Shown here piece after piece: positions 2,629-52,700 of a stretch of 64,000 nt of DNA (positions are counted from its first letter, which is position 1; the number at the start of each line of letters is the position of its first letter). A program made the position numbers and the translations under genes. This DNA comes from Odiellus spinosus (lineage: Eukaryota > Arthropoda > Arachnida > Opiliones > Phalangiidae): NCBI GenBank assembly GCA_963920705.1, contig OY987232.1, forward strand, positions 20,385,868 to 20,449,867, in the 5' to 3' direction. The notes under the pieces were generated by a model. It did not search any database. It was given only the letters and a program-made list of their open reading frames with translations, and had not been told where the DNA came from.

Positions 2629-5600
2629 ATGCCCGTGTCTTCGTACAGACGCGACTTACCGGAGTTGATTCGCAGCTCCGACGAGACCTATTCGCGAGGT
2701 CTAGCGGCCATTTCCAGGTCGTCTAGGGTCAGAGATTACGATCAGGCAACCAACGACGATCAGTCTACCAGCCTCGAGTCCTTGCGGTATTCCTTGCGCT
2801 ACAAATCTCGCAGGTAATTATGAAAAAAAAACTTGTCGGCTGTTGAAAAGAGTAGGACAATCGAACGATTCCCAATTACTTCGAGTTGTCAGTGGCGTCG
2901 TTTTTTAGTTGGGGCTCTTAAAGCATAGACGCGATACAGAGCCATTGTACGCTGTTAGAAAGCGATTGAACAATTAGAATGAACCCTGCCTGGACTGTCT
3001 GTCTTGGTCAGTTAACCGGGGGTCAAAATGGGAATAGTAATTAGTAGTTGGCGTGGTTTGAAAGTTCGATTAACCATTTTATTCGTTACTTAAGTATATT
3101 CCGAGGCTAAAATAAAATGTACTAAGATAGTAAAGTTCGCTAAGTTTAAGAGTGTTCGTGTTGGTTTCGCGTAATTTTAGTTTCACGTCAGCTAGTCTGG
3201 GTTTTTCTCGTCGAACTGACGATGTCGGCGGCACTATTCGCACTCGTCGCGAGTCCGTCGGATCCGGCGCAACCTCAACTAGGACATCAACTTCTTCATC
3301 GTCGCCAACCGGATCCCCTAACTCCTCTAGAGCGGCGGCGACTACGAAGGCTGTCGATTCTACCTGCTCAAGGACGTCCAATGGTAAGACCTATTAACTA
3401 CTTTAATTCAGTCGAATATTAGCCTATTTAGTACTAAGAGAGGTCCAGAAATTTAGTCTAGAATAGGGTCCGATGGGTTTTAATTCGTACAGAAAGGGTC
3501 TGATGGGTCAGAATTTGACCAGAAAAGGTCGTATTTCGTCTTGAAACGGTTTGATAGGTCGCGATTTGTTCCGTAAGGATCTCACTGCTCAAAATTAGTT
3601 TAGAAAGGTTTTGAAATGTCAGAATTGGATCTGAAAGGGTCCGAGGGCTCGGAATTCATTCTGAAAGAGTCTGAAAGGTCAGAATTTATTCTGAAAGGGT
3701 GTGAAAGGTCAGAATTTATTCCGAAAGGGTTTGAGGGATCAGTGTTTGATCTGAAAACGTGGGAGTGGTTCGATATGAGATCGAAACTGAATTAGTCTGG
3801 TTGGATGTTAACCAGTGGGTTTCAATCGCACCTCAGGCGTTTCGAGTTCGCGAAAATCGTCGCCAGCGCCTGTCGGGTCCCGCGATTCCTCATTATCTCG
3901 CGTCGAGAAGAAGAAAGTTGAAAACGAAAGAGTTGGTAGTTTAATTTCGTCTCCGAAATGGTCTCGTATCAAAGAAACATTCGAAGGGGACAATTTCGGA
4001 GGAGGAGGAGTTGAATCTCGAAGCGACGATCGCTCCAAATTACGTCGAAATCATAGTCAATCTACGTCATCTTTACCTCAAATGTCATTATCACCCAAAC
4101 GTCGTAATCCAATCGACGCTTCTAACCCTCCTAACAGGGAACCAGCGACCTTTTCGCGGGTTCCCACTTATAGACATTCGACCAACATCGGGTTAAACGC
4201 TTCGAAACGCGCCGCGGACGTTGATCGGACCATAGACTTTAAAACTAAAACTCGCGATTCCAAACGGGTTAGCGGTCGATTACCCAACTTATCGACAACC
4301 GAATTACATCGATCAGATCGAAGGTCCACCGCTAGTGAACATTCATTAGAGTCTAAGAACGGATTTAGTCGAAATAGGACCGAAATGGACGATAATTTCG
4401 ATAGAAATCGAACTAAAATCGATAAAAATACTGACGAAGAATATAGAAAAAGCTCCAAAAACTCGAAAGACGCGTCGGGTCCGACCTATTCCGACGATGA
4501 GAGTCGAATTTCTAACAAGACCGATATTTCGATGGCTAGAAAAACGACTGAAACGAATATTAGCTCACCCGAAAAAAAACAACCGGACAGTTTCGAAGAA
4601 AAAGTCAAAGCATTGCGGCGAAGAATCGCGTCGACTGCCAGGGATTACGATTCCGTAATTAAAGATAACGAACGAGTCGTTGAGAAGAACAAAGCCTCTT
4701 TAACGCGATCTTGTTCGTTGAGATACGAAAATGATCGGGATTCCAACACGGACGATGATCGAAGGAAAAAAACTCCAGTTTCTTATTCGTCCGAATACGA
4801 AATTCCGACTGAAACGAACAAATTACGTCACGATCGTGAAGAAAATTCTAGCGTGAAACTTCATTCCAGATTTGATCGTCTCGATCGTACGACGATTCGA
4901 AATTCATCACGCGATTCTGATCGATTGGAAGCCGGAGATAATTCTAGCGAAAGTAATCGCGATCAAAATCGGGAAACTCGTAGAAAATCGACCGAGATTT
5001 CGACGAGAGAAAAAACTACTTCAAGATTTGATCACGATCAAACTCGGGACAGTACCAGAAAATCGTCTCTTACTTATTCGATCGATAAAAAATCGTTATC
5101 ACCGATTGAACAACTCGAAAATCGTGATCAGAATCGGGAATCGAAAAGAAAATCAACTCGAAACTTAACGGAAGAGACGATACTTCGTAAAACGAGGGAG
5201 AAATCGTACTCTAGATACGAAGAAGACCATGATCAAAGCGACACCGATCAACGAACATCGTCTTCCAACGAAACGACCAGGGATTCGGTTTTCCTCGCCG
5301 ATAACGAGAATGACGTCATCGAACGCGTTGCGTGTCGATCCGAATTTGGCGACCTTTCAACCCGTAGAAGTTTACCAAAAACCCTAGATTTAGTTAACGG
5401 TTCGACGGCTTGGAAAAAATCCAATACCGGTTCGTGGATGAAAGTTGAACTTAAACCGGAAGCCACTACTAATTGTAACGTCAGCTCCGCCCAATCGAGG
5501 GTTGCCCTACTAGCCCAACAATTTAATCATCTCGGAACGGGCAAAAATGCCTCAACGACTGAAAAATTCACTCGTTCGATTTCGGTCCCGCTTCGTACGA

Positions 5601-8600
5601 ATCCCAATTCCAAAACAACCGGCAAGAAATCGGATTTGAAGTACGACTTATCGCCTCCTAAGTACCAGACAACGCGAGTGTTTAAAGAACGATGTTTGTC
5701 CTTACCATCTTCCCGCGAATCTTCGGTTAATTCGTTGAAAACCAGTTCTTCTCCGAACGAATCTTCTATGGACGAAGACGGACTCAAACAAGCCTTGAAC
5801 GCGGGTAGGAAGTTGAGCCTCGTCAAACAAGTCGTGCAATCCTTCGAAGAACAAACATCGGCTTCGAACAGTAGCGAATCTTCGAGTTCAAGTCGCGAGA
5901 ACACGCCAACCACCTCGAACGGTCGCGGGAAAAACGGAAATTTTAACAAAAACGACTCGAAAGCGAACTCCGAGGTTTCCAAAACTGCCAACGGGACGTC
6001 GGAAGCCAACGCCAATAACGAAGATAAGAAATTAAAAACGAGACAACGTAACCCCAAAAACGTACCGACGATGGTCAAAAAACAAAGACCCGATCTACCT
6101 CCGCCCAGAAAACCATCGACCCCTAAACGACCTCTGTACGTAAACGCGCCGCGCACCGAAGATTCGCTTTTGGCCGAGTTAGAAGAATGGTTAGTTCAAA
6201 AATACGACTCCAAAGACAACGGAAATTCGACGATGGTCAAAGCCGTTCCTAACCAATCTTTCTTATGGAAAGATTTGGGACCCGAGCTAAGTAACGGCGC
6301 TTGTCCCAAAATGGATGGAGGCGAGCAGCGAGCTACCGGGAACTACTACTCGTTGCCATTCGCGCACCCCAATTCGCCGATCAAATCCAATCAAGAGGAT
6401 CACATCTACATGGAAGCGTCATTCGTTAAACCACGATCAGATTCGAACGACGTTAAAGTCGCCGATAACGCCAGTTCTTGCGACAGCGACGAAGGATGGG
6501 TCGATATAAGCGACACGGAACTGGAAGGCGGCGGGGACCCCAGCAGTCCTCGAGTAAGAGTTCGAACTAAAAGCATCAGTTCCCAAGCCGGTTCCGGTTC
6601 CCGCAAGTCCTGGAGAGATAGTGTTCGAGAATTGGCGGCGGCCGGACCGCGTTGCATCTTAGACGACGAGACGTGGAACCATAAGGATTATCAAGACATC
6701 GTCATCTGGGAATCGGTGGAAGGCGACGATTCTTCTCTTAGCTCAACGTCTGATCATTTTTACGAAGCCTTGTACGAAGAAATCGTCGATAACGGCCGGG
6801 AAAACGCCACCGACGTTAAAAGAACGAATAGTTTCGGACTTAAAAGCATCGTGGAAAGCCCCGTCGATAACAACGACGCGTTGCCTAGCCCGGCGCCCCC
6901 GAACCAAGGCCCGAAATACGATAACGTATCTGGTTTAAAGAAGAGGAATTCTTTCGCGGAAACGAGCGTAACTTCGCCCGTCGAAGAAGCGTCCCGATTG
7001 AAACGCAACTGGTCCTTAACCAAGAAAGATATTCATTTGGAATTGGACGCGAAATTGAGCAAGAACAAACCTAGTAAAAGCGCCTGTAATCTCTCGGATA
7101 TTACTCCTACCACTACCACCGCCGTCAAACCAGTTACTTCGCCCGGAAATACTCGCGCTTCTAAAAGAAAAACCTTGATTAAATTCATATTGAGGCAGAA
7201 AAAAGCTAACGCGGTTCCGGCAACGACTCTTCCGGTCAATCCTGGACCCAACACCACCACCAAAAAATCGCGTACCAGAAAGAAAGGCTCTATGTTCTAC
7301 GTCAGATGGTCCACCGTCAATAGAGACACCAGACAGAAGTCGCAGTCCGAAAATGATATCGCCGCCGGAGAAACTAATTCAGAGGTACTTTTTTAAGGAC
7401 ATTGGTCTAAAATATTAATCTAACGAAAAAATGTCACGATTTCTTCGTATCAGGTTGATTCCGGTAACGGAACTTCCTCGGAAAGATTAGACAGTAACAC
7501 GTCGCCCACTCACGGCGGCGCGACGATAAAGAGACGTCCATCGGACATTAGAAGACCTAGTTCTCCTCCGCCATTACCTCCAGTCGCTTCCTCCACCGTG
7601 GTCAGATCGCGCGAAGGAACCAAATCCTTAGAGATTCTACGACCATCCTTATCTAGAATACCCTTTGATGAAAAAACAAAGTCCCTGGATTCGGTCGTGT
7701 CAGTAGCGGCCGCCGGAACTAGCGACGAATCTAATCGGGCAGTTGACGCTACTGGTAAAAACGACCAACAGCTGACCAGAAACGGGACCGATTCCGAGAG
7801 AAGTTCGTCTTCAAGTACCGGTAATTAAGATCGTTTCGTAATTTATTTATTGACGAATGTTTGTGAACCCGCGTTGGTAATTACTTTAGGTACGCGGACT
7901 TGTAGTTCTTCGTCGTCTCGCGTTGCAACGGACAGTCCTTTCTCATTGTCCCCGAAATGCAGGAGTTCCGTTGCTAGCAGCCATTCTTCGCACTCTGGTG
8001 CCGGAAGTTACATGAACGTCGAAGATCTGGCGTCCAAACCCAAGAATCTCGCTTTAGCTTTGACCAATGACTCGGACAGTCTTTGCAGTTACTTACTTAT
8101 AAGCGCCGATTTAAAAGAGGTAAGACGACCCATATCCTAATTTCCTCGAAGATGTCATCGATGATTCTTTTTCTCGTCAGCCTCTTAAGTCTCCATTCGA
8201 AGAAGAACCGTTGTATCAATTTTACCACAAAGACGCCAAGCAACGCGCTACCTTATGGCAATCCATGTCCACCATGGAAGAAGACGAGCAAATGTACCTC
8301 GAAGAATACAGCGACGACTTCAGCGACACCGAATCCGAAGAAGACAAGTTAAAAGACGACGACCCTGACGATGAAAATGAATGCCCCAAATCTCCCGGTT
8401 TGTCCACTTTGAAGGCTTTGTACCCTCCTAGTCGCGGCGGAATCCCTTCGGCTATGGAGTTACTGAGGCAAGAAGGCGGCGGAGGACAACGGACTTTGTG
8501 GTGCGAAGTACCAGAAGTCAGAAACAGCGGAATCCTTGATAAAATTTCCCCCCAAGATCGGAAGATACAAGAAGCCATGTTCGAAGTCATCACTTCCGAA

Positions 8601-10414
8601 GCCTCGTATTTGAAAAGTTTAAACATCTTGATGGAACATTTCACGCAATGTCCAGAATTCTCCGAAGATTTCTCGGTCAATTGCGTTCTTGGTCGAAGGG
8701 AAAGACACATCTTATTCTCAGACGTTGCTCCCGTACGAGACGTCAGTGCCAGGTTAGTGTACCACTAGGAATTAAATCTTACGCTAACGGACATTGTTAT
8801 TGATAAGTATGGTACCTTTGCAGACTTCTAACCGATTTAGAACGTAGATGGCAGGAAAATATCGTATTGACGAATATTTGCGATATTCTTTACGAACACG
8901 CTAGCAAATTCTTTGGCGTTTACGTCAAATATTGCGCTAACCAAGTTTATCAAGATAGAATTCTCAAAGAACTCAAGTAAGTTACGATTATTAAATAGGC
9001 CTTATCCACTAGGGATTAGTTCGAATTAAACGTAATTAAATGTACGATTTTAAAATCCGAATTTCAGAGCAACGCGACCCGATTTCATCGAAGTGTTACG
9101 ACGATTGGAATCGAACCCTATTTGCCAAGGCTTAGACATGTTATCGTTCTTAATGTTGCCTATGCAACGTATTACGCGTATGCCCCTATTGCTGGACGCC
9201 ATTTACCACCGTCTGTCTCCGGAATCTCCTTACCACGGTATTTGCAAACTGACCTTGGCGACTTTGAACAAAGTGGTGGCCGAGTGCAACGAAGGTGCTC
9301 GAAGAATGGAACGCATGGAAGAAATGCTCGTTATCAGTCGGCAACTCGATTTCAGGGATTGTAAGAGCATTCCGCTCATTTCCGCCTCTCGCTGGCTCGT
9401 CAAGAAGGGAGAACTCACCAGAGTTTCCTTCGATTCGTCCAATGTCAAACGAACATTCGGAAGGACGAACAAATTCGCTAAAAGCCCCGTTTATTTCTTT
9501 CTATTCACCGATCTACTCGTCGTTGGAAAGAAGAAAAAGTAAGTTTACTATACATTTAATTATCTTAATTGTTAAATCGTATTCATCCGTCCGTCCCTTT
9601 GCTATTTTTAGCGAGGAATCTTACGTGGTTTTGGATTACTGTCCTCGTAATATGGTGCAAGTGTTTACTTTGGAAGAATCGAACGTTCAAATTCCCGAAA
9701 AACTTCCCGAGGGTTTGAGGAACTCGTTCCAATTGACCATGTTGCAAAATAACGAATTTAAAACGGTCGAAATGATTCTCAGTTGTCCCTTAGAGTAAGT
9801 TCAAACCAGTTCCTCCGTCGCTTGCGGACCAGAAGCCATTATTCTCACCTTTTTGTTGTCGTTCGTGTAGGAGTGATCGTACGCGATGGATGGAAGCCGT
9901 AACCCCACCCATTTCTGAAAATCCTGACGAGAAAATTTACGAAGAGTGGGGTAAGTTTTCCTTGTTTGAGATCAAAAAGGAGTTGCGATTACATTTTTTG
10001 CTTTGTTCTTTTTAATTTAGATTGCCCTCAAGTCCAATGCGTTTATCCGTACTTCGCTCAACAACCGGACGAACTAAGCCTCGAAGAGTCCGATGTCGTT
10101 AATGTTCTCAGAAAAATGCCTGATGGTAAGTAAGCTTAATAATGTAGCTCCTTTACCCAAAGATTAGGCGAATTATAAAAATATGTAGAGGTTATTTGAA
10201 GAAAAATATTCTATTTGATTGTTCAGGTTGGTACGAAGGCGAAAGACTGCGAGACGGTCAACGCGGTTGGTTTCCAGCCTCGTTTTCCGTCGAAATCATC
10301 AGTTCTCATATTCGGGCGCGCAATTTGCGACAAAGATATCGTCTACTGATGTTGTCGCAAGCTTACGTCGAAGAACAACGTAAAGCCTTCGTGAATCGAG
10401 TCAAATCCAAATAA
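2629..10414 (+). CDS. Exn: Ephexin-family Rho guanine nucleotide exchange factor (DH-PH-SH3)
   Basis: Exons: 2629-2813, 3181-3383, 3837-7384, 7454-7820, 7890-8119, 8181-8752, 8824-8976, 9068-9538, 9612-9794, 9871-9950, 10021-10125, 10227-10414. All introns are GT-AG and all phases agree, giving 6285 nt (2094 aa plus TAA). The start ATG has an in-frame TAG six codons upstream. Residues 1 to about 1630 are low-complexity, rich in Ser/Arg/Asp/Asn, with proline-rich [12 protein letters not shown] and PPPLPPV stretches. The DH domain (about 1640-1845) starts at [20 protein letters not shown] and contains the [19 protein letters not shown] helix. The PH domain follows (about 1850-1990, from [14 protein letters not shown]). 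An SH3 domain (about 2000-2056) spans CVYPYFAQ to GWFPASF. This order and these motifs are those of ephexins (vertebrate NGEF and relatives, fly Exn), which activate Rho GTPases downstream of Eph receptors. The assignment to the family is firm; the particular paralogue and GTPase preference are inferred. The N-terminal region is much longer than in vertebrate ephexins. Confidence 0.93.
3437..3752. repeat. Degenerate tandem repeat in ephexin intron 2
   Basis: About ten diverged copies of a unit near 31 bp, reading like GGTCAGAATTTATTCTGAAA followed by GGGTCTGA, fill most of the 453-nt intron between exons 2 and 3. The last three copies are the most alike. Confidence 0.75.
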
Positions 10415-12671: not shown

Positions 12672-15600
12672 ATGGCGGCTGGACCGATTGCCGAGCGAAA
12701 TCAAGGTAATTACTAATTATTTCGATGTTATAAGTAGCTTTTTAATTAATGTTTGCGTTATTCAACGTTTAATAAAGAGGTTAAGATTCCTAAAAAAGGG
12801 TAGGGTTTGTTTTCAATCGTATTTACGCGTAAATATTGGCTTGGAAATTGAATTTCGACCGAGGCTTAGCAAGTTCAAAGAAATTGAATGATGGCTAAAA
12901 CTGTGTTTTACTTTTAAGTTTTATTCATCTTGCTGTTGGAAAATTAACAATATATTAATTTGAATTAAATTTTAACGTAGACGCGACCATTTACGTTGGT
13001 GGTCTGGACGAAAAAGTATCCGAAACTATCTTATGGGAACTTTTTGTGAAAGCCGGTCCAGTTGGTACGTATTTCTCTCTTTTAAACTCTTTGAACTCGT
13101 TCTTCAATTAACGTTGGCGAAATAATTTGTCAGTAAACGTGCACATGCCGAAAGATCGTATCACCGGTCTTCATCAAGGATACGGTTTTGTGGAATTTAT
13201 GGGCGAAGAAGATGCGGATTACGCTATCAAGATCATGAACATGATCAAATTGTACGGGAAACCGATTAGAGTCAACAAAGCTTCGGCTCATCAAAAGAAT
13301 CTCGATGTCGGCGCCAACATTTTCATCGGGAATCTTGATCCCGAAGTTGATGAGAAATTATTGTACGATACTTTCAGCGCTTTCGGCGTCATTCTACAAA
13401 CACCCAAGGTACTTTCGAAATTCAAATTGGGGGGGTTAAGTCAAAGAATAACCTATTCAAATGATTAAAACTGTTGTTTTATTAGATTATGAGGGATCCG
13501 GAAACGGGGAATTCTCGAGGCTACGCTTTCATCAATTTCGCTAGTTTTGAAGCTTCGGATGCTGCCATTGAAGCTATGAATGGACAGTATTTGTGTAATC
13601 GACCGATCAGCATATCGTACGCTTTTAAAAAGGATGCCAAAGGAGAAAGACACGGATCCGCCGCTGGTAAATCTACCTTCTTTTCCATCTTTACATTGCA
13701 ATTTCCAACTTTTCAGGTTTAATATTTACCTTTTCAGGTTTAATATTTACCTTTTCAGGTTTAATATTTACCTTTTCAGGTTTAATATTTACCTTTTCAG
13801 GTTTAATATTTACCTTTTCAGGTTTAATATTTACCTTTTCAGGTTTAATATTTACCTTTTCAGGTTTAATATTTACCTTTTCAGGTTTAATATTTACCTT
13901 TTCAGGTTTAATATTTACCTTTTCAGGTTTAATATTTAACTTTTGAGGTTTAATATTTAACTTTTGAGGTTTAATATTTAACTTTTGAGGTTTAATATTT
14001 AACTTTTGAGGTTTAATATTTAACTTTTGAGGTTTAATATTTAATTTTAGAGGTTTAATATTTAATTTTAGAGGTTTAATATTTAACTTTAGAGGTTTAA
14101 TATTTAACTTTAGAGGTTGAATATTTAACTTTAGAGGTTGAATATTTAACTTTTAAGGTTGGATATTTAACTTTTGAGGTTGGATATTTAACTTTTAAGG
14201 TTGAATATTTAACTTTTAAGGCTGTAATATATTTTTAACGTTGAAAATTTAATTTTCTAATTTCAGAACGGTTGTTAGCGGCTCAGAACCCTTTGTCTCA
14301 CGCGGATCGTCCTCATCAACTGTTCGCGGACGCTCCGCCTCCTCCGATGATCACTGGAATGTTGCCACCGATGCCCCCGCCTCCTCCTCCGCAGATGGGA
14401 GGAATGGCCATGATGGGAGGAATGCCCCCGCCACCCGGAATGCAGATGGGAATGCCACCGCCCCCTCCACCTATGAGACCGCCCATGTTTGGCCAAGGAG
14501 CCCCGCCGCCACCACCCATGCGTAAGTTTAATTCCCTTTAATAAGTTGAAGGAAAAATATTGGAAAGATGAAGAAGAAATTACGTCGAATGAGGTTGGGG
14601 AGATTTTAAATTTGGTTTTCTAAGGTTGGGCAAATCTGATGATCGTTTAAAGATCAGGGAATGAAGAAATTTGGTTTATTAAGGGGTCGAGAAATTAAGA
14701 AATTGGTTTAAGAAGGTGCGGCAATCGCGAAATTAGGTTTAATTAAATCAAGGAAGAATGAAATTGGGTTTAAGAAAGTCGGGGAATTAAGAAATGAGTT
14801 TAGGAATGTTGGGGAATAAAGAAATTGGTTTAACATGGTCGGGGAATAAAGAAATTTGCTGTAATACGGTCAGGAAAGAATGAAATTGGGTTTAATAATG
14901 TCAGGAAATAAAGAAATTCGGATAAAGAAGGTCTGGGATTTAAGAAATTGCGTTTAAAAAGATTTGGGAATAAATAAATTTGGTGTAATAATATCATGGT
15001 AGATTATAAATGAACTTCTAAAGGTCAGGCAATAATGAAGTTGGGTTTAATAATGTCAGGGATTTAAGAAAGTCAGCGAATTATAAAATTGGTGTTTAAA
15101 TAAGATCAGGGAATAAATAAGGTGTAATAAAATTGGATAGATTAAAAATGAACTTGATAAAGGTTAAGAAATGTAGAAATTTGATTTCAAAAAGTGAATT
15201 ATTAATTTGATTTTAAAAATGTTTTTCAGCGATGCAAATGCCGCCTCCTCATCCTCCCAACTCCATGATGCAACAAATGCAACAATACGGAGGGATGGCT
15301 CCGCAACACGGCATGCCCCAACACATGACAACCTCCGGGGGAATGGCCCCTCCACCTCCTCCTCCAATGGGTAATACTAAAAATTAATTCCACTCTTAGA
15401 AACTAATTTTCATTCCTAACTACCTTTTTAATCAAAATTTGAAACCTTTCCTGGACTGCTGATCAAAAAAAATACCAATCGCGGTCTTCGAAAGAATTAA
15501 CGGGGTTCGTACGCAACCTGGAAAAGTCAGGGAAATAGAAAATGGGTCCAAAAGGTCGGGGAAAAGTCAGGGAAATCTATTTTTTGGGTAAAAGTCAGGG

Positions 15601-16845
15601 AAAACGGTGATGATTTGTAGCAGTTGCGAATAATATTTTTAGCTGAAATGTTTTATGCGGGATTTTCTTTTTTCTCTCGACACTTTTCAATTTAACGCGC
15701 AATTTCTTTTTCTACTAGGCTTAGTCATCCCCGTCATTCGTGTTGATTCCCATCTTCTGTCAAATCTTATAATAGAGAGTGCGTGTTGAAAATATTACAA
15801 TAGGAAGATACTCGGGAAATTTATCGAAAATGGTCAGGGAAAACCTGGAAAAGTCATGGAAATTCAATTGGAAAATTTTGTACGAACCCTGATTAACTTT
15901 CCTTCGAAAACCGCGAACCGAATGACCGTAAAAAATACGGTTTCTTATTGAAAATTTGAATCCTAAGACTGCGAATTAAGAAATTGGAAGTTTATATTGA
16001 TTTTCATTGTTTGTTTCGTCATTGTTTCAGGTATGCAAATGTTCCAAGGACAAGGAATGTCCATGAATCCGCAACAGATGCAGATGCCTCAACATCCGGG
16101 AATGAATTTCATGCAACAGCAACAAATGCAAAGGCAGCAACAAATGCAGCAACAGCAACAACAACAACAACAACATCAGCAAATGGCCCAACATCAACAA
16201 CAGCAACATCAGCAGCAGATGCAACAAATGCAGCAGCAGCAGATGCAACAACAAATGCAGCAACAACAACAACAGATGCAACAGCAGCAATTGCAACAAC
16301 AGCAATTGCAACCTCCTCCTCCTCAACCTCCGCAATTTCAAATGCAAACTGGTAAGAAATTCATTCTTACAGCTTTATTACGCATTTTCAGGGGAACATT
16401 TTTTCCCATTTGCACTTTTTTACGGGTTTTTTAGCCATTCTTACGGGTATTTAACAGTTCTAAGGGTATTTCAGTTCATACGGTTTTTTAGCGGGTGTTA
16501 CGAGTTTATTAGTGGTGCTTAAAGTTTATTAGCAGTTCTTATGGGTTTTTAGCCATTCTTACTCATTTATTAACCGTTCTTACTCATTTATTAGCAGTTT
16601 TTATGGGTTTTTATAGCGGTTCTTACGGGGGTTAGTGGGTTTATTAGTTTTTACAACTAAACGATCCTATTTTAACATTGATGGTGCCCCTTAAAATTTC
16701 ATTTTCGTAGCTTTTGTTAATTTAAAAATTTCGCATCTGATTGAGATTAATTATTTTAGGATCTCGTCCTCCCCCGCCAGCGGGTCCTCCTCCCCCTCAA
16801 ATGCACCAACCCCCTCCGCCTCCTCCCGGACCTCCTCCCTCTTAA
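12672..16845 (+). CDS. SF3B4: Splicing factor 3B subunit 4 (SF3b49/SAP49), U2 snRNP
   Basis: Exons: 12672-12705, 12981-13064, 13134-13408, 13486-13666, 14267-14521, 15230-15370, 16031-16351, 16760-16845; 1377 nt, 458 aa, all GT-AG. The start [20 protein letters not shown] is almost the family N-terminus. RRM1 (about 13-90) has RNP2 IYVGGL and RNP1 GYGFVEF. RRM2 (about 100-180) has RNP2 IFIGNL and RNP1 RGYAFINF. Next come [20 protein letters not shown] and [18 protein letters not shown], both near-universal in SF3B4. The protein contacts pre-mRNA near the branch site as part of SF3b and acts in the nucleus. The tail departs from vertebrates: exons 5 and 6 are Met/Pro-rich, exon 7 (16031-16351) is almost all Gln and Met, and exon 8 is Pro-rich. 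Introns 4, 5 and 7 hold tandem arrays and intron 6 holds a transposon. A possible AATAAA lies at 17078. Confidence 0.97.
13713..14230. repeat. 21-bp minisatellite in SF3B4 intron 4
   Basis: About 24 tandem copies of AGGTTTAATATTTACCTTTTC. The first half is nearly perfect. Towards the 3' end the units drift to versions with CTTTTGAGG, TTTTAGAGG and CTTTAGAGG. Because the unit is seven codons long, one frame stays open; that open frame (13580-13939) runs past the true donor at 13667 and is not coding. Confidence 0.97.
14560..15190. repeat. Degenerate tandem repeat in SF3B4 intron 5
   Basis: Many diverged copies of a unit of roughly 28-35 bp built around GGGGAATAAAGAAATTGGTT TAA fill intron 5. 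Copies have drifted in both sequence and spacing. Confidence 0.7.
15501..15891. mobile_element. MITE-like element in SF3B4 intron 6, GGGTTCGTAC ends
   Basis: The ends CGGGGTTCGTAC (15501) and GTACGAACCCTG (15880-15891) are inverted copies with one mismatch. The 5-bp direct repeats ATTAA flank them at 15496-15500 and 15892-15896. The interior has several GTCAGGGAAA motifs, shared with the GGGTTGCCA family elsewhere in the window. No transposase frame is present. Confidence 0.75.
16370..16640. repeat. Degenerate tandem repeat in SF3B4 intron 7
   Basis: Diverged units of about 25-30 bp built around TTCTTACGGGTTTTTTAGC, repeated roughly nine times just after exon 7. Confidence 0.65.
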
Positions 16846-17887
16846 ACAACATTACCAACATTTTTCAATCAATTCGACACCATCTAGTGAACCGCAGTTT
16901 GTAAAACTTTTTTTTAAAACAGTAAAAGATCTTACCGCGATTGGTTTTCTTCACATTTGACTCAATTTTGTCAGAACTTATCGGGGAAATGATTATGGTT
17001 GGATAGGATCGGGGAGAAATGAAAGAATTTTGATAGAAACAAAATTCTAAGCCGCTAGAATGTAGGAAAATACTAGAAATAAAGGGTTAAGATTAGAGCC
17101 TAACGCTGTTATAGCAAATCTATTAAGAATTAGGGAATTACTAGTTTCAGGACCAATTTTTAACGGACAAACTTTGCTTGTAACGAAATTGGTCATAAAT
17201 CATAATTATTATCAGGGCCATCGTTATCCCTTTGAAGAATAGGCCTAATATGTTAAATAAGGAAAAAATAAACGCCAAACTATGATTAAATCCATTTAAT
17301 AACGAAGTTGAAATCGTACAATGTTAAAAATCGGTGGTTTTGATTATTTGAAATCTTTGATTTTAGTAAAATTCACTTAATTTTAAACAACTTTGGTATA
17401 AATTATGGTTTTTTAATTATATTTAAGCTCGTTAAGACACGCAAAATATTTAATATTAATAGGAGAGATATGAAATTTATAATAGATATTAATATATTAT
17501 GACATTAATCGAAGTTTAAAACTAGTCTTGACCAATCACCTTAGTTTAACCCAAAATAATATCGTGATTTTTAGTTCTGATCTTATTTTTTGGACGCAAA
17601 AATTAGAAATATTTGGCGCGAAAAATAAGAAATATTTGGAGCAAAATTAAAAATATTTGGCGCGAAGATTTTAAAATTTCAAATCTTTGGCTAACAAAGT
17701 TGTAATGAAAAATTAAGAACTGATAATTTAGAGGCGAAATTAATTTAATTTAACCATGACTAGGTTTAAACGTTATAATTAAATATTATTATGACTTAAA
17801 TCAATGACTAAATGATACAATTATTAAACTTTTAAATCTAAACCCTGACTTTCAAAATTCGTAACGAGTTATCTAACAATTAGGATT
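16846..17887. other. Intergenic stretch between convergent SF3B4 and PRXL2B
   Basis: AT-rich sequence that should hold the SF3B4 3' UTR on the plus strand (AATAAA at 17078-17083 and near 17265) and the end of the PRXL2B 3' UTR on the minus strand. There is no coding signal. A short local repeat built on AAATATTTGGCGCGAA lies at about 17605-17670. Confidence 0.6.
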
Positions 17888-17958
17888 AAAACCTTTAAAA
17901 CTTCGACAATATCGCGTTAGACAAAACGTTTATCGATATTATTTCATGGCAAAGGCTT
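17888..17958 (-). promoter_or_regulatory. SECIS element (form 2) in the 3' UTR of the PRXL2B selenoprotein gene
   Basis: Read on the minus strand from 17958 down to 17888. Helix I pairs AAGCCTTT (17958-17951) with AAAGGTTT (17896-17889), eight pairs with one G-U. An internal loop (GCCA / GTTTT) follows. The core quartet is UGAA (17946-17943) opposite CGAA (17905-17902), so ATGA sits on the 5' side and GA on the 3' side as in all eukaryotic SECIS elements. Helix II is nine pairs, ATAATATCG with CGATATTGT, one G-U. The apical bulge ATAAA supplies the unpaired adenines, 12 nt after ATGA. A ministem CGTT/AACG with loop TTGTCT makes it form 2. It starts about 84 nt after the stop codon. SECIS elements recruit SBP2 and the selenocysteine elongation factor to recode UGA. 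The structure was read by eye, not computed. Confidence 0.93.
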
Positions 17959-18041
17959 AAGAGATCGACGTTAGATTAACTTTATTACGAAAAATCTTCG
18001 GTTTCGTGTTTAGTTTAAGAGGAAATTCTTCGGGGAAATGC

Positions 18042-20585
18042 TTAAACAGCGTCACCCTTTTGGGAATCGCTATCGACGGGCGATAGAGACTGGGCTAGAC
18101 CCAATGCCTTTAAAATTTCGCAGTTTTCAACGTGATCGGCTGGCGAAACTTGTTTGAAAGAGAGTAAAACTTCCCCCCCTTTAGCTACGACTAGAACGCC
18201 TCCGTTTTGGAGACCATCCCCTTTCATATCGCCGCCGATAGTTTTGTCAGCTCTCGCCTAGTTTAAAAAAGCGTCAAAAAACAATGTCAATAATAAGGGA
18301 TAATGTAGATGAACGTACTTAATCGCGATTAAATCAATTAGAACGTTCTTAATGGCGATTAAAACGCGTTTCTAATTTATGCTCACCTGGGCGATCAAGG
18401 TTCTCGAAGCTCTACCTAATAAAGATGCCAAAACTCCCATAAGACTGAATCTGAAAACAAATTAGAAAGATTCAGTTTTCTTTAAAGAGAAAATGCAACG
18501 TGAAAACGAGGGTTTTAAGGTAGAGGCCTAATCCACTATTAAACAAACAAAACAGCCGCCATGTGGTGAAAAAAACATTTACCAATAATATATATTAACC
18601 GCGAACTCGTTTCATTACTAGGAAAATAGGCTTAGCAAGGATCTACGGAATTTCGGATCTCTTCAACGAGTGTCTGACCAATCACGCGTTTGTAAACGTT
18701 AAAATAAAACGCGGGATTTACTCTCAACGCGTTAACCCCTGAAAAGATATCCGTGGATCCTTGTTAAGCCTACATTCGTAGTAAGATAAAACGATTTCTA
18801 GCTAAATTTTGGTCCGTAACCTGGTTTTTTAGTGGAAAAGGCTTTAGAACAAAAATGAAAACCACTATTGTGGCGGTTAATTCAAGAACATATTCTTTTC
18901 CAACTCAAAGAGAACGCTTGGTTGCGAATAGGGATAGTTCTTTATGCCCTTTAGTGTCAAATAAGTTACTCGAACATCAAAATTTAATACAGGAAGTAAT
19001 TGAAATATTTTGAATATTTAAGCCTTGGCTTAATGGGCGCCGAGAACCAAGCCCCAAATTCGACTCCATCTATTCGTTCTCTACGAGAAGTGAATATAAT
19101 CTTGATTAAGTCTAACCTTTTAAAACCCAATTTCTGATAACTCTCTTTCTTCTCGTCTAAATAAAGCTCTAAAATAAATAAATATTGTATTAAAAATGAG
19201 AGAAATTTTAAAAGCAAATATTTTCCCGAATGGATTTTACCTCCCTGGAAGAAATTTCCTTTTTGGAATTCTTCGAGACCGAGCTGCTCGAGACCGACGC
19301 CAACGAGCCGGATTCCCTGGGTGTCCAGGTCCGGCTTGATAGCGCTGATCTGTCGAGCCCCGATACGACAAAAGGCTCATCCAAATCGACGCATGAAAGT
19401 GATCACGCACGGAGAGTTGGACCAAAAAGTATCCATTGTCACTGACTAATAAATAAATTACAATCTTATATTATAGTAGCCAGAACGAATTTTACGATTC
19501 AAACGCTTGAGGTTTATCGTTTTCGTTTAAGTGGTAAATTAAAATTCCCGCCCTTTTTCCCAGCATTTCCTTGCAGGGTTGCCAGGAGATTGCGAGCGTG
19601 GTTCAGAGAGGATTAACTACAAAAACCAAACTGCTAGCATTTCTCTCTGCTTCAGTTTGCGCTCGCAAATTCTTGGCAGCGCTGGGGAAACGACATATTT
19701 AACTCCTTTTGTGAAAAACAAAACTGAAAAGTCATGAGAAATGGTCTAAAAAGAAGCTTATTTCCAGGGAGGGACTGGGGCCTTAAATATCACGTGGCTT
19801 CATTGTCGGAGCGTCGTCTGCTACAAATGTAACAAGCCATGCGAGAGCGAGATTTGAAGTTTTTTTCTTCCGTTCTTCAGAATTTCCTAAGCCTTGTCAT
19901 TAACAGCAACTTTTCAGTATGATTATGAAGTGAGTTCAAAATCAAATTGTTCTATCTCAAATTTTAACTGTAGTGATAAGACAAACATCATTGGGGCCGG
20001 AATACAATAGATAAGATTTACAAGAATACGAGGATTATAAGGAGATAAAGATTCAATAGCTTCAAGTACTTGCTTCCTAAACCACTACTTGGTTTTTTTT
20101 TTCGAAGTACTCTAAGTTACGTACCACGTATCAACTTTAACTTTACAATTAATCACTCTTATCCGCAAATCTTAGCGTTTCTAACGCGAGGTTCCTTTCA
20201 TCTCCTAAGAATCTTTCGCCGAGTGAGAAATTTTAGTTTATTTTAACACCCGTTACTCTCTTAAGCTGAGCTTTACATTCATTGTTGCAAGGGTTTTTAC
20301 TAGAGGAAAGATCAAAGTTGAGAAACTTTTTATACAAATACATTAAAACTCAAAAGCTATAGGACCTACGAAGAGCGGGTTTAACGGGTGAATCTCTTAA
20401 ATCCGTCTCTCGGAACGGGCGGTAGCTTTCAAATCAATAGGAAATGAAAGTACGGCCGTAATAATTATGTAATAATTGCGAAGGAAGAGCAGCGGGTGTA
20501 ATTATAAACGTATATTTAATAGTTTTACCTCTCCAGTTGCGACTGATTTAACCAGCAACTTAGCTATTCTAGAACTTTCACTCAT
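18042..20585 (-). CDS. PRXL2B: PRXL2B-like selenoprotein (selenoprotein U family), UxxC redox protein
   Basis: Minus-strand exons in order: 20585-20529, 19445-19241, 19168-19117, 18450-18387, 18257-18042; 594 nt, 197 aa plus TAA, close to the usual length of about 198 aa. All introns are GT-AG and all phases agree. The start MSESSRIAKLLVKSVATGE has an in-frame TAA five codons upstream. Exon 2 reads MRRFG-U-AFCRIGARQIS: TGA at 19377-19379 (residue 42) sits at the first Cys of the family CxxC, and Cys45 is kept. Further family motifs are GIRLVGVG, LGLEEF, GELYLDEKKESYQKLGFKR (joined across exons 2 and 3) and KGDGLQNGGVLVVAKGG. Family members have a thioredoxin-like peroxiredoxin fold; vertebrate PRXL2B reduces prostaglandin H2 or prostamide. 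The recoding is supported by the SECIS at 17888-17958. With TGA read as stop the protein would end after 41 residues. Enzyme activity in this animal is inferred. Confidence 0.95.
18627..18772. mobile_element. Short inverted-repeat element in PRXL2B intron 3 (family D)
   Basis: TAGGCTTAGCAAGGATCTAC GGA at 18627 and its inverted copy TCCGTGGATCCTTGTTAAGC CTA ending at 18772 form 23-bp ends with two mismatches around a 100-bp core. A related pair lies at 28778-28945, and a right-hand end alone at about 26825-26852. Confidence 0.7.
19560..19692. repeat. Foldback repeat in PRXL2B intron 1
   Basis: GTTGCCAGGAGATTGCGAGC G on the left pairs with CGCTCGCAAATTCTTGGCAG C on the right, and the outer CCCAGCATTT pairs weakly with AGCGCTGGGG. 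It looks like a small palindromic transposon remnant. Confidence 0.55.
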
Positions 20586-43769: not shown

Positions 43770-46700
43770 CTATCCAATCTTTGGACTCGTTGAACGACCA
43801 AATAGTACAGTTCATATTTTCACCAGCGGCGTCGTTGGCGTCGATATCGGGGGTCGGCGGTCATTCGTCGGAGGGTGTCTGCCCCCGTCTAGAGGACGCT
43901 CTTGTTCCGATCGCGACTACGTCACTAGAGGAGGATGACCGCCAATCGAGCGCCACGCCTCGCGACTCTGACGTCATCGAGAAAGGGCGGACTCCGCAAC
44001 CATCTACTCATGATACTTTACTTACAGCGTCAAACTCCGCGGTAATTTACTCTTAATTACTTTGTTAGATAGATTATCGTTTCTCGAATTGCCCTCTACG
44101 AAGTCCCACAATTTTGAATAGGGGTTTCTCTTTGGTTCGGGTATTTGCCCCATTAACCCGAAAACCACTTTTCCAATTACCCGAAACTACTCGCGGGTAG
44201 TAGAACATTATCCTCAATTTAAGGCCCTATCTGCTCTGATACTTGCACCTTTAAAATGTTTTTCCCTTACGCGCGCTTTGACAGTACAATTTGTTACGTA
44301 CAACGTCGTCTGCTAAGCTAGAAAAGGAGGCGACTTTAGAGGGTATTTGAAAATCGCGGATAGTCCCTTTAATAATTTTTCCCCTATCACCTAGGCATAA
44401 ACCGATAGCTAGCGCCGTTAGAAAGAAGACATTCCGTAGATTAATTTAAAGTCACCCTGCTTACAATTTCGTTTCTCGTTAGGTATTCGACACGTTGTCC
44501 TAATTATTACCCGTCAACCGTTTCGTGTATTAATTATTTCTACATTTTGTTTATAATCTTTCGCGTTTATTTTCACATTGGCGTATTTGTAGTCATTTCT
44601 ACCCTCGAACCGAGAGGAACAGCGCGAATCTCTGTCGTCTTCCATGGCCCTCATGCGACGTCTACTCGTTGACGCCCAGGCCAAATTCAGACGCATGATG
44701 GAAGAAAATAAAGCTCTGGCCTCCAGAATTGACGGAGACATTCAAACCGCCCACCAAGAGGTTAGGACCAATCAAAATCAAACTTTACGATCGACTGTAA
44801 ATAAATCTAGAAAGTTCATTTAATCTTCAGGTTTCTTTACTACGAGCCGAATTAGCGGACACGAACAAACGAATCACCCAAATTACCAATTGCGTTTCGG
44901 TAACGGATGTTTCTAGCCCAACATCGTCTACCCCGATTAATCGCGAAGAACCAATAGGGATGAAAGTGGTTGAACTGTCATCGGAACCAGTTTATCGCGG
45001 TTTCGATCGCGATAACTGTACATTATCGAACGGTAAAGGAGGCTCCCGCAGCCCGGATCGGACGAAAGCCACGAATGTGGTCGAACCTTTAGTGAAAAAA
45101 CCCCCTTTGAAATCGACTAGCCTTCGTAGACACGGTGGCGGTGTCGTGGCTACTGGAAAAAAAAATCGGTCTTGCGCTAATACCAACAGCCCGCGGTCTT
45201 CGGGTGACAAAATGGTGACATCTAGAAACGGCGAATGTGTCGATTCGGTCATCGGTACCGTCGATTTGATGACGGGTAAAAGTCAAGACGCTGATGACGA
45301 AGACGGAGATTGCGATAGATGCAGGGGTAAGTACGAAAACATTACTTCCTTAGGTACTTCAGTAATTGTACTTCCATTAACGCGTGTCTTAATGGTATAC
45401 TTAGTTTGTCCTCATCGTGATACGGCGAACGTAATTCTTCCATTGGAGGAGAAATTGAACAATTTAGAGGAACAGAACGAACATTTGAACGAGCGAATCG
45501 GTAGTCTTCAAAAGGAATTGGACATCATGCATCGAGTCACTCAGACTGAACAGGCCAACGGGGACAAGGACAATTACCCCTCGGAGTTAGATACGGCTTT
45601 GGCGACGCCCGAGACAAGTTCCGTCGATATTCCCACCGCAGTCGCTTCTTCATCGTCTTCGTCGTCAGTCACCCTCAAGAACCCCGAAGTAGAACGACTC
45701 GAAATCGAACTCAAACACGCCAAAGACGCCTTAGCCGGTGAGTCAAGTACTTCTACTTAAATTTAAACACATAGAGTAGCTGGAAAAGAATATTTTCCTC
45801 CACGACTAATCCCAAAATTGGTTCGGGTCTATTGGTAAATTGACCTTTCATGTTGAAGATAGATGACGCCAATAGCTAGAATAGGGGACGATGTTTAGTG
45901 GGGCAAGTCTCTTTTAAGATCTTAAGTTGCGCGGTTGAAATTGCAAAGTGTCGTATATCTTTATTATATTTGTTAAGCAATACTTATACATTCATTTATT
46001 ATATACTTATGTCTTCACAAATGTGAAATGACTTCCTGTTAGAGTTTCTTGTCGTCTGCTAGTTTGCTGTTAGGCTCTGTTTGTCAATAAAGTCAGGTTA
46101 TATAATCAATTATTAATAAACTAATTATTAAGTTTGAGGAAAACCTTATTTATTTTTCACCATCTAAAGATTAAAATAAACGATATTAATAAAATTAACT
46201 TAATTGATCACTGTGAAATGGAGCGAATGGACCCGAATAGATTTTAATTCCTTCTCAATCTTAACCGGATTAAATTTTAATTCCCGAATAGCTTTGAAAG
46301 CGGATCGTAAAAGATTAAAAGCCGAGAAATTTGACCTTCTAAATCAAATGAAACAATTGTACGGCACGTTGGAAGACAAGGAGAAGGAATTGCGCGACTT
46401 CATTCGCAATTACGAGCAGAGAATGAGGGAAAGCGACGATAATCTCAAGCAAGTAAGTACTTACCATTCATTCGTAAGCTTAATCGAAATTAATCAATCC
46501 GGGCCTTGGCGCCAGTTGGTGAGAGAGCGCGAAGATTCTGAACGGGAAAAATGGAACATTTTGAAACACGCCAGAGACGAAGCTGAGAGATCGGTGGCCT
46601 TGTGCGCCCAATTGGGAATCAAGGAAGCCCAAGTTAAACAACTTCAGGAGGAACTTATTTGCGTTTGTTTCATTATTTGTTTCCTTAAACGCTAAAAACC

Positions 46701-49700
46701 CTAGAAGTAATATTTCGTTACTTGTTAGATCCGCGAAAAACTTGGTTACATTTCGGACACGGATGTCCGTAGTCGATCGAACGGATATCGAAGTCCGAGC
46801 GCCACTTCGACTCACACGCACGGACGAGATAGCAGCGATACTCCGACGCCGACACTCGGTGGTTCGGAACCCACCTCTTCTTACGACGGAACGCCAACAA
46901 TTACGGTTGACAGAGATTCGGGTTGCAGTCCGGGACATCACAGCGCGCGGGGTCATCATCACCATCACCATCGAGACAAAGACGCTCGACGGCCGTCTTT
47001 AACGGGTCTGTCTCGATCGGCTGAAGAAATCTACAATAGCAGTGGTAGTTCCGATACGGGAGCTACCGCCTCAGCCACCAAGAAGAGACGCGACAAGAAC
47101 TCGACTTGGGGTTCCATCTCCAGAGTTTTTTCCAGGAGCAGACAACGGAAGTCGCTCGATCCGGGCTTTTACGAAGGTACAGGTACGTCCCCTATTGGAA
47201 AATGGAATTCCCCTTACCAAAAAAAAGTTAACCTTAAGAGGTCTTGGGTCAATCTATGTGAATTCGGCTTGAGGAAAAAGGGTCTAATTTTAAATTTCAA
47301 TCATTTTTTTTTTTCTACGGATATATAAGAAGGGTTGCCACAGATTTTTCATATCAAAATTCCCTGACTTTTCCAGGTTGTCCCTGACCATCTACACCGT
47401 TTTTCCCTGACCAATTTAAAGCTTTAAATTAGTACAACTCCAAGGTTGCTAGAGATTCGTGTGGGAGCTCTAACCTGCGCGAATCACCTCTCCCCAAAAA
47501 TAGGTCTTCTGTTTAGACAGTATTCCGTGAGAAAGTATTCATTAAAAAAACGTGCTTTTCTCAATAGGGACTTTCTCCGGTCTAACTGAATCCGTACTAT
47601 GAGATTACACTATTTTATTTTTGGATAATATGAAAATTCCCTGACTTTTCCCTGACTTTTTAGACCAATTATGAAATTCGCTGACTTTTCCATGTTTTCC
47701 AGGTCTGTGGCAACCCTGTATAAGAGTAAGAAACTGATATTGACCATGTTTCAGACTCCAAAAAAAAAAAATTATTTCTCAAGTTATAATTTTTTTAATT
47801 GTTTCAAAATTATAGGAGTTTATTAATTTTTAATTTCTTAAAAAAAAAAAAAAAGAAGCATTTCATGTCGTTGAAACATTTTTGTTTTGAACTGGTACCG
47901 CTTCCCATTTGATGTTTCTGGGTAATCTACGCTAAATTCGTAATTAAGACATAGGAAAGGGCCTCAATCCTAATTTGAAGCTATAAAACCCTGGTTAAGA
48001 AATACAAAGACAGATGATTAAATTTGGGAAAGGGAATGGGGTCTCATAAGGGCCAAATTTGAAATTCAAAAACCACCTTGGAAAATTCAGAAAAATTAAT
48101 ATTTTTGGCCCAACAGTATATCTACTTCAATTTATAAATGGGATCAATGAGAAACAATTTTGAAGTGCAAATATTTTTTTATTTTTCATAATTGTACGAT
48201 TTTATTTATTTTGAGTTTCTTTAAAACCTGGAAAAGTCAGGGAAATTCAATTCGAATTTTTTTTACAAATCCTGATAACCTTAACTAATAAAACTAAGTT
48301 AATAGTGAGTCTGAATATTTTTACATTGTAAAAAAAGAAGTTTATATCATTAGCGAGCGGCAGCGAACAGCAGAGGTCATCGTGGTCTCCTCAAAGTAGT
48401 TTGTGCGCGAGTCCCTTGACGGAAGACAGTTACGCCGAGAAGTTGAAATTGCTGGAAGAAGCTCGAGGTCAGAGGATGGACAGGTGGAAAGCGGCGACTG
48501 TCTTGGCCTGGTTGGAAATCACTTTGGGAATGCCGCAGTACGGAGCCATGTGCGCCGAAAACATAAAAAGCGGAAAAGTAACCCCCAATAAATTCAAATT
48601 AAATTTGATTAACTAATTTCAATCTCTTTTAGATTCTTCTGGAACTTTCGGATCCCGAATTAGAAGCCGGTTTAGGCATCGCCAATTCCATGCATAGACG
48701 GAAACTACGTTTAGCCATCGAAGAACATCGCGATCCACCGTCGAAGTAAAGGTTTTCATTTTGATTCTTTCCTCCTCATCTAAATCTAATGTTTCTACGT
48801 TTTTGGCCTCGCAGCCCTTATCCGAAGATCAGTCACTTGACTCACGCTTGGGTTGTCGAGGAATGGCTTCCCAGTTTGGGTCTCATGATTTACGCCGATA
48901 ATTTCGTTCGCCAACTCATTGACGGTCGCGTTCTCGAGACCTTATCCAAAAAGGATTTGGAGAAGAGTCTTGGCGTCACTCGCAAGTTCCATCAAGTCAG
49001 CCTCACGCACGCCGTGCAATTACTCAGAATGGTCAAGTTCGATAAACAAGTACTTGCGCTATTTTCTTAATACTTAATAGGATTTTCTTAGAACTTGGAG
49101 TAGTTTTTAAACTATTCTAAGTACTTAGACTACTTTGAAAAGTACTTAGACTACTTTGAAAAGTACTTAGACTACTTTGAAAAGTACTTAGACTACTTTG
49201 AAAAGTACTTAGACTACTTTGAAAAGTACTTGGACTACTTTGAAAAGTACTTGGACTACTTTGAAAAGTACTTGGACTACTTTGAAAAGTACTTGGACTA
49301 CTTTGAAAAGTACTTGGACTACTTTGAAAAGTACTTAGACTACTTTGAAAAGTACTTAGACTAGTTTGAAAAGTACTTAGACTACTTTGAAAAGTACTTA
49401 GACTAGTTTAAAAAGTACTTATACTAGTTTAAAAAGTAATTTGACTAGTTTGAAAAGTAATTTGACTAGTTTAAAAAGTAATTTGACTAGTTTAAAAAGT
49501 AATTTGACTAGTTTATAAAGTACTTGTGGTATTTTCTAGATCACTTTTTACTCAATTTCAGTAAATTCTAAGTATTTAAAATACTTTATGAAGTATTTGC
49601 GATATTTTTTGAAGACAAACTTTTTATGAAGTAGTAACTGTCGTTTCGTTTGGCGTTGTAGTTGCTTCAACAGCGTCGATCTCATTCGGAGAGTATGGAC

Positions 49701-52700
49701 GTGGATCCGTTGGTTTGGACGAATCAGCGTTTTATCAAATGGGCTAAAAGTATCGATCTGTCGGAATACGCTGACAATTTGCGGGATAGCGGCGTGCACG
49801 GGGCCCTGGTGGTCTTGGAACCTTCGTTTCAAGCGGATACGATGGCAACAGCCTTGGGCATCCCGGCGTCCAAAAATATCATCAGACGACATCTAACTAC
49901 CGAGCTCGAGAATTTGGTCCAACCGGCCAGGTACGCTTAGTTGTTAAGTCACTAGAAATCTTTAGTATTAATTTGGGAAGTTTTTTCCTGCGGGAATCTT
50001 TTGAATCCTTATTGTTTAAATAGGCCTAATCCACTATTTAAAAAATTTACAATCAAATATTAACGGGTAAATGAAAAATGCTAAATCACTTTCTTGATTT
50101 TACGTTTTTCCGAATCTACGTTATCGAAAACCTAAGAAAAATATCAACTCTTATTTTTAAGCATCTCCTAAATATGATAGAAAAGGTTTTAGAGATCGGA
50201 CTTAGTTGTCTGCTACTTAAAAAAGCATGGAGCCCCTGTGTTTGAATTTGAAATAAAACAAAATTGGCAAAGTTTTCTATAAAATGTTCTAAAATTTATT
50301 TAATTCAGGGCTCCCTCCAGGTCCTTAAAATACCTAAAACCCCCTACTTTTTTTTTTTGAGGTCCTTAAATGACTGTAAAATTGTGATTTTGGTCCCTAA
50401 ACCACCATATTTCTAGTAAATTTGGGTCAAAGTACCATCAGCCTATATAATTATCTCGAAAAAATGTTATAAAATTAAAGTTAGATTTGTGATAAAATGT
50501 TTTGGAAAAAAAACCTACTTTAAAAGTAATTTTTTGAAAATTCGAGATCTCATTTCTTTTTAATTTGCTTCTTTAAATTAGTTAGAAATTGATGAATTTT
50601 GGTCTCTACGCGATTTCAGAATGTCTTTGGAAGCGGAAGCTCTAGTGAACAGCAAACGAGGTAAATCCACGAGTTCGTTGCATTCTTCGTCTTCGGGATC
50701 TTTGGGTCGAAATTTCCTTCGCTCTTCGTCTTCAAAAGGAACTCTGGATCGACCGGACAACAAACGAAGGTCCAGCATGAGGGTCAGTACGCCTTTTTCG
50801 ATATTCCACTTGGTTCCTACAATTAGAGCTCTGATTAGGGAGATATAGAGTTGGGGGTGGGGGCGTGTTTTTACCAATCAAGGCGTCATTATGACGTCAT
50901 TGGCTTGATTATTTAGTTGCTGTTAATGTTCGGGCGTCCTTGGCGATTTTCGTCATTTTAAATTAAACGCGTCGACGTAACGAGAGAGACGGTAATCCCC
51001 CGTTTACTCGTGTGTTTCGTTCAGTTTGCCGCTTGGAAAAGTTCTCAGGTAAGACGGAACTACGTTATTATTACGTTAATTAACGCCAACGACATCATTA
51101 ACACCAGTGTTTTGCCATTTCCATTTTGCCAAAATTGGTTTATTGATTTTTTATTTGTTTACCGAGTGTGACGTAACTGAACAAAATTATTTTTTATATT
51201 TACGAGATTTTTTCATTTAATTGTTTCTTGCTTTAGTTATCCAATTATTTATTAGTTATTTCTACATTTTTCATTTTATCATTTAGTTTATTAGTTTAGT
51301 TTTTTAATTACTCTAATATTTCTCGTAATTTTTGTTTAATTTGGTTATTTATTTATTTAATTTTTTTTCAACCTTCTCCTCATCCTCCTGTTATCTTTGG
51401 CAGCTGTTCTAACTCTTGTATTTGTTTTTTTCTGGTCGTCGGGGTCTGTTTCGGATGTTTTATTTTCAGTTGAGTGTCTCTTAAGGCGTCTTTCTCTATC
51501 TTTGGTCCATGCCAGCCCGGGCTTGTGTTAGAGCATGGTAACTAACCAACTAACTAACTAATATCGGTCGAGTCTGTTAAAACCCTCCTTTTCGCTTCTG
51601 GGGGGGGGGGGGGGGGGGGTGGCTGGGTTTCAAACTCGTATTCAAAACTTATTTAAAGCCTTTATTTACGAAGACTTCCTATATTGTCCTACGATCGAGA
51701 ATATTTGATTGAATTTGGAACTCTGCCTTTCCCCACTCCCCAAGTTGGCTTTTAATTGGCTCGCGCTGATTTTAACAAAATAATTATCTGTATAGCTTTA
51801 ATTTCTATAATTTAAGAGCTTATTTCAGCCTTGAGCTTATTTCAACATAATTCGAGCTCATTTTAATTTAATTCGAGTTACTCGATTTTAATTAGAGATT
51901 AAATAAAAGTTGAAGCTTAAATCCAGCTTAATTCGATTTTAATTAGATTAAATAAAAATTGAAGCTTAAATTGATTAAATTGAACCTAATTCAAGCTTAA
52001 TTCGATTAAATTGAACTTAATTCGATTAAATTGACCTTAATTCAAGCGTAAATCGTTTAAATTGACCTTAATTCGAGTTTAAAACGATTAAATTGACCTT
52101 AATTCGAGTTTAAAACGATTTAATTGACCTTAATTCGAGTTTAAAACGATTAAATTGACCTTAATTTGTGCTTAAATTGAGATTTATTATTGAATTATTT
52201 CAACTTAATCTTTTAAGCCTAAATTATCCCGAAATAAGCTTCATTAATTAAAATGTAGTTTAATTCTAGCTTATTTGATGTGAAATAACTGAAATCGATC
52301 TTATTCGAGGTTTGATTTCGTAACCAATAATGCGTTTCATTCTTTTTAGAGCGAACGAACAAGGTTAATACGATTTAGTCCAACTAGCAATTACTAACAA
52401 TTCCCCAATTTTATTTGAATTACTTAAATAATTAATAAGAGTGTGCGCAATCAATTAATGCAATTTTAATTTAATAAGGTCGTAAGGTCAATGAATAATA
52501 TTTAATTTTTTTTGTTGGATATTTTTTGCGCGGGTGATTTGCAGGGCTCGTTGACCCGCGCGTTGGGTTTGAAGTTAGAAGCTGAATTATCATCCCATCA
52601 TCATCCAATAGACGATTCGTCGAATGAGCAGCAGCCGCGGCATAATTCGACCCCCGAGCTGACCAAAAAGACCTTGATTACGACGGACGATTTAACGCTC

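Follow-up and report, generated by a model that had tools for sequence, protein, structure and literature searches.

A probable selenocysteine form of PRXL2B in the genome of Odiellus spinosus

The genome of the chelicerate Odiellus spinosus very probably carries a functional selenoprotein gene, the selenocysteine (Sec) form of PRXL2B (SelU family; SelU3). It lies on the minus strand of the window analysed here, a stretch of 64,000 nucleotides at C8:20385868-20449867 of a 443 Mb genome, and the following features were assigned to it:

20529..20585, minus strand: exon 1 (57 nt), with ATG start, GT donor and open frame; homology starts at residue 5
19241..19445, minus strand: exon 2 (205 nt), holding the UxxC motif
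19377..19379, minus strand: in-frame TGA, codon 42, the Sec position and first of CxxC, from gene model and alignments
19117..19168, minus strand: exon 3 (52 nt), from the gene model
18387..18450, minus strand: exon 4 (64 nt), from the gene model
18042..18257, minus strand: exon 5 (216 nt), ending in the TAA stop
17878..17963, minus strand: SECIS element, form 2, in the predicted 3'UTR, from Rfam SECIS_1, a motif scan and folding

The five exons give a spliced coding sequence of 594 nt, corresponding to 197 codons and the TAA stop, and recomputation of the boundaries led to GT-AG ends for all four introns and to agreeing reading phases, as the preliminary description of this locus had proposed. 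The TGA at 19379-19377 is codon 42 and the sole internal stop. Local translation reads RRFG-U-AFCR with the second cysteine (Cys45) retained, compared to RRFGCVVCR in the solved prostamide/prostaglandin F synthase (PDB 9us9), so that codon 42 corresponds to the first cysteine of the CxxC motif, again in line with the earlier assignment of the TGA to the active-site cysteine. In the alignments, the in-frame UGA takes the place of the redox cysteine of the homologues.

For the searches, codon 42 was translated as Cys. The protein gave 79.2 bits with Pfam AhpC-TSA_2 (PF13911; cut-off 27) and matched 9us9 over residues 5-185 (E 3.8e-48; 83 of 180 aligned residues identical), a match that spans all five exons and both sides of the TGA; a chance homology is thereby excluded. 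In another solved chain, 9usa, both motif positions are S, as might be expected from a mutant of the catalytic pair. The only NCBIfam match was SelL_rel_redox (SelL-related redox protein) with 69.1 bits, below its cut-off of 120, and database matches were either named as prostamide/prostaglandin F synthases or were uncharacterised, unnamed or hypothetical proteins. The AhpC-TSA_2 domain and the full-length homology suggest membership of PRXL2B, an assignment to the branch that is based on search matches.

Position 42 was compared in 104 database relatives: Cys occupies it in 75 and Trp in three, and the other 26 lack a residue at this site. Among the latter, 24 start past this position, four of them exactly at residue 43, where they read MFCR or MYCR, and two lack the motif inside the protein. 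Relatives without the motif that carry an organism name are from Liolophura, Mactra, Ladona and Darwinula (a chiton, a clam, a dragonfly and an ostracod, respectively); the named arthropod relatives with Cys at position 42 are insects. The Trp residues look as if TGA had been translated under a code with TGA=Trp, and both these and the late-starting entries may be read as a UGA misread by gene callers, while some of the short, late-starting relatives may be contigs that simply end there.

A hairpin located about 80-165 nt past the TAA stop, on the same strand as PRXL2B, shows the components of a form-2 eukaryotic SECIS: an ATGA from 17947 opposite GA, helix II of 9 bp, an AUAAA bulge that holds the AA motif, helix III of 4 bp and helix I of 9 bp. 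Rfam SECIS_1 (RF00031) matched 17955-17892 with 64 of 64 model positions and 31.2 bits (gathering score 35); the E value of 7.8e-05 holds for a search of 141 bases and corresponds to about 0.035 when scaled to 64 kb. The element was listed in this 141-base search only, being absent from an Rfam E-value search of 3.6 kb, and no Rfam match of any kind, SECIS included, was obtained for the whole 64-kb window at gathering score. From the 3.6-kb search, an isrG match (E 0.0005, 16215-16303) was dismissed as a CTG-rich low-complexity stretch. When both strands of the window were scanned for the motif (quartet, helix II, AA, helix I) and compared with 15 dinucleotide shuffles, the SECIS site was the sole match on either strand at the three stricter settings, with one match at the strictest compared to a shuffle mean of 0.13 (two of 15 shuffled windows reach one); the loosest setting gave two sites, no excess over the shuffle mean of 1.4. 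Even at that setting, the chance of a match within some 300 nt of one strand is about 0.3%. As the scan was written after the element had been seen by eye, these figures serve as a guide only. Folding led to an MFE of -16 kcal/mol (z -2.17); among 200 shuffles, 6 folded at least as well. Taken with its position, this places a SECIS in the predicted 3'UTR. The SECIS is flanked by two polyadenylation-type signals on the minus strand: a canonical AATAAA at 17986, which follows the stop codon and precedes the element, and an ATTAAA past the element at 17749.

Whole-genome searching with the PRXL2B protein gave four matches at E 0.001, all of them exons of this gene, and located no second exon like exon 2, which was matched with 94% identity. 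This match holds one TGA and one TAG, the latter being the intron acceptor end. As all four matches are exons of an intron-bearing gene, the locus cannot be regarded as a processed copy that accompanies a functional Cys gene. The search works exon by exon and does not show distant paralogues; it therefore speaks against a close Cys copy and not against PRXL2A or PRXL2C. These results bear on a pseudogene reading, in which the TGA would be a normal stop that has inactivated a Cys gene now in decay. An in-frame TGA does resemble a nonsense mutation, and TGT or TGC becomes TGA by a single base change; however, the 197 codons hold no other stop or frameshift, all eight splice sites are intact, the stop falls exactly at the Sec/Cys position of the family, a SECIS follows downstream, and no other PRXL2B copy was found in the genome. 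Such decay is very unlikely.

The genome also encodes the components for decoding UGA as Sec. Three tRNA-Sec genes were detected with RF01852:

C5:19545703-19545788 and C8:16919279-16919364: two identical tRNA-Sec genes (80.4 bits each)
C7:15851696-15851779: third, divergent copy (61.4 bits)

ARAGORN called both 80.4-bit genes as tRNA-Sec with anticodon TCA and made no call for the third, which shows changes in the acceptor stem. Several copies appear unusual for an animal. The other 50 of 53 matches to the model were weaker (51.2 bits or less) and lie on contig C1; the one locus among them that was scanned is a tandem tRNA-Ser array near 8.33 Mb, with 19 genes in 3 kb at a spacing of about 160 nt. 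SepSecS was detected on C14 with five matches above cut-off (best 115.7 bits), two of which run over stops that were taken for intron ends. On C2, eEFSec gave 106.2 bits with Pfam and E 2.8e-66 with PDB 5izk for its exon, and the Pfam search had no hit in any of 14 control genomes. SBP2 on C7 was one of 11 matches in an L7Ae search (30.3 bits), with PDB 7zjw_B (SBP2) as best structure match (E 1.9e-20); another of the L7Ae matches is not SBP2 and reads like RPP38.

Selenophosphate synthetase (SPS) was represented on C12 by four matches, none of which exceeded the family cut-off singly. The same search also gave hits in 13 of 14 control genomes, but PDB comparison identified Selenide, water dikinase 1 (E 9.1e-56). 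The SPS gene reads FADLRG-TGA-GCKVPQE near 21354592 and thus has an in-frame UGA itself, at the SPS active site. A SECIS-like hairpin lies 3' of its coding end (z -3.20; 1 of 200 shuffles as good), called from folding and from a motif scan relaxed to 7 pairs in helix II and 4 in helix I, and not recognised as SECIS by Rfam. This relaxed scan gave two matches in 7 kb of one strand when one mismatch was allowed, and one further match when two were allowed.

Absence of tRNA-Sec, SBP2 and eEFSec had been named in the preliminary description as evidence that would speak against Sec, and a search for SPS had been suggested; all three factors are present, as are SepSecS and an SPS with in-frame TGA. 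The selenocysteine reading proposed there is supported by the SECIS past the stop codon of PRXL2B and by the presence in this genome of tRNA-Sec, SepSecS, SPS with its UGA, eEFSec and SBP2.

Two further explanations have to be weighed against it. One is an error in the reads or the assembly that hides a TGC or TGT codon of an ordinary Cys enzyme. A single base difference would suffice, but such an error would not create the SECIS downstream, and in a genome that uses Sec, and with Sec forms of the branch already published (see below), a TGA is what would be expected; we regard an error as extremely improbable. The other is a relic Sec form, in which UGA and SECIS persist and the main product is short or alternatively started, without the active site. 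It could draw on the AATAAA at 17986 ahead of the SECIS, as polyadenylation at this signal would remove the element and switch off Sec insertion, but conservation includes the exons preceding the TGA as well as the resolving Cys45, and a protein lacking the active-site segment would probably not function, which leaves hardly any probability for a relic.

For a functional Sec-PRXL2B, the established mechanism of eukaryotic selenoproteins applies, in which the SECIS binds SBP2, leading to eEFSec, Sec-tRNA and insertion of Sec at UGA. The hairpin 3' of the PRXL2B stop codon would accordingly bind SBP2, which would bring eEFSec with Sec-tRNA(UCA) to the UGA of codon 42, where Sec would be inserted in place of termination. 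The protein is predicted to be a thioredoxin-fold, peroxiredoxin-like enzyme, and we infer, as for its expression and substrate, that Sec42 would be the attacking and Cys45 the resolving residue, with a selenenylsulfide where the Cys form has a disulfide. This selenoprotein would be overlooked by ordinary annotation, and the locus exemplifies a type of gene for which standard annotation yields a model truncated at the active site.

Several other genes were observed in the window. Exons of a kazrin are located at 44593-49940 on the plus strand, with a SAM domain at 48765-49070 (Pfam), and its nearest named relatives among the matches listed are horseshoe crab kazrins. In a midpoint-rooted maximum-likelihood kazrin tree that combined the window with 24 relatives picked from the best 120 of 639 (25 rows in all), the window falls inside a group of 16 rows, starred at 99/98, with sea spider, horseshoe crabs, pseudoscorpion, ticks, spiders and other transcripts; the fork excluding the sea spider is unstarred (91/94). 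This placement indicates a chelicerate, probably a euchelicerate. An ORF of 1194 codons at 3812-7396 (plus strand) lies upstream of RhoGEF exons (Pfam RhoGEF 9054-9542), and the only database relative found for it is a 2038-aa protein with RhoGEF and SH3 (51% identity over 57% of the query). A gene at 13112-16904 (plus strand) with Pfam RRM_1 and a proline/glutamine-rich tail appears to converge on PRXL2B and resembles SF3B4. Short repeats at 13690-14150 and 49104-49400, with KLNIKP-like and LDYFEKY-like translations in the list of ORFs, are probably intronic.

Sec forms of this branch have been published before. Jiang et al. (2012; PMC3473315) list eight invertebrate SelU3 proteins from seven species, of which three, all from deuterostomes, are Cys forms, leaving five Sec forms by subtraction, and equate SelU3 with prostamide/prostaglandin F synthase. 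The six genomes surveyed there are from a sponge, a placozoan, a sea anemone, a limpet, an annelid and amphioxus, and the text does not contain the word arthropod. In Mariotti et al. (2012; PMC3316567), every Sec-containing vertebrate SelU is placed in SelU1 and no support is reported for an early Sec state of SelU2 or SelU3, which revises an earlier view (PMC2397514). For the centipede genome, 20 predicted selenoproteins, each with a SECIS, are reported (PMC4244043), so that a non-insect arthropod appears to keep many of them. In the literature searched (main texts, best matches), no report of a chelicerate Sec-PRXL2B was found, and mention elsewhere is possible.

The novelty implied by the preliminary description was therefore overstated, as judged from the published SelU3 forms (PMC3473315). 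It had also left open whether Sec is ancestral or regained; as Sec forms of the branch are described for other invertebrates in the same source, ancestral Sec is much likelier. Most likely, Sec-PRXL2B goes back to an ancestor early in animal history, and insects and deuterostomes each replaced Sec by Cys separately. We lean, with somewhat less confidence, towards a broader scenario, in which Sec was ancestral in animal PRXL2B and kept in non-insect arthropods generally, insects and deuterostomes changed to Cys independently, and many invertebrate entries (chiton, clam, ostracod, transcripts) were cut short or lost the motif by reading the Sec codon as a stop. If Sec is ancestral, insects would have replaced it by Cys after their split from chelicerates. 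That the Odiellus protein joins the already known Sec forms of the branch, with Sec most likely kept in a chelicerate and Cys in insects, is well supported; it extends the known range of Sec-PRXL2B to a chelicerate, with UGA, SECIS and decoding machinery all from one genome.

In comparison with known systems, the solved PRXL2B/FAM213B structures (9us9, 9usa) share the length class and the CxxC region with the Odiellus protein, but 9us9 has Cys at the first active-site position where the Odiellus gene has a Sec codon. Vertebrate SelU1 (PRXL2A) of fish and birds is a Sec form within the same wider family, yet a different paralogue from PRXL2B of Odiellus. Closest are the invertebrate SelU3 proteins of PMC3473315, which by the authors' naming belong to the same branch and, as predicted for Odiellus, have Sec for Cys, although the hosts in that survey include no arthropod, whereas the gene described here is from a chelicerate.
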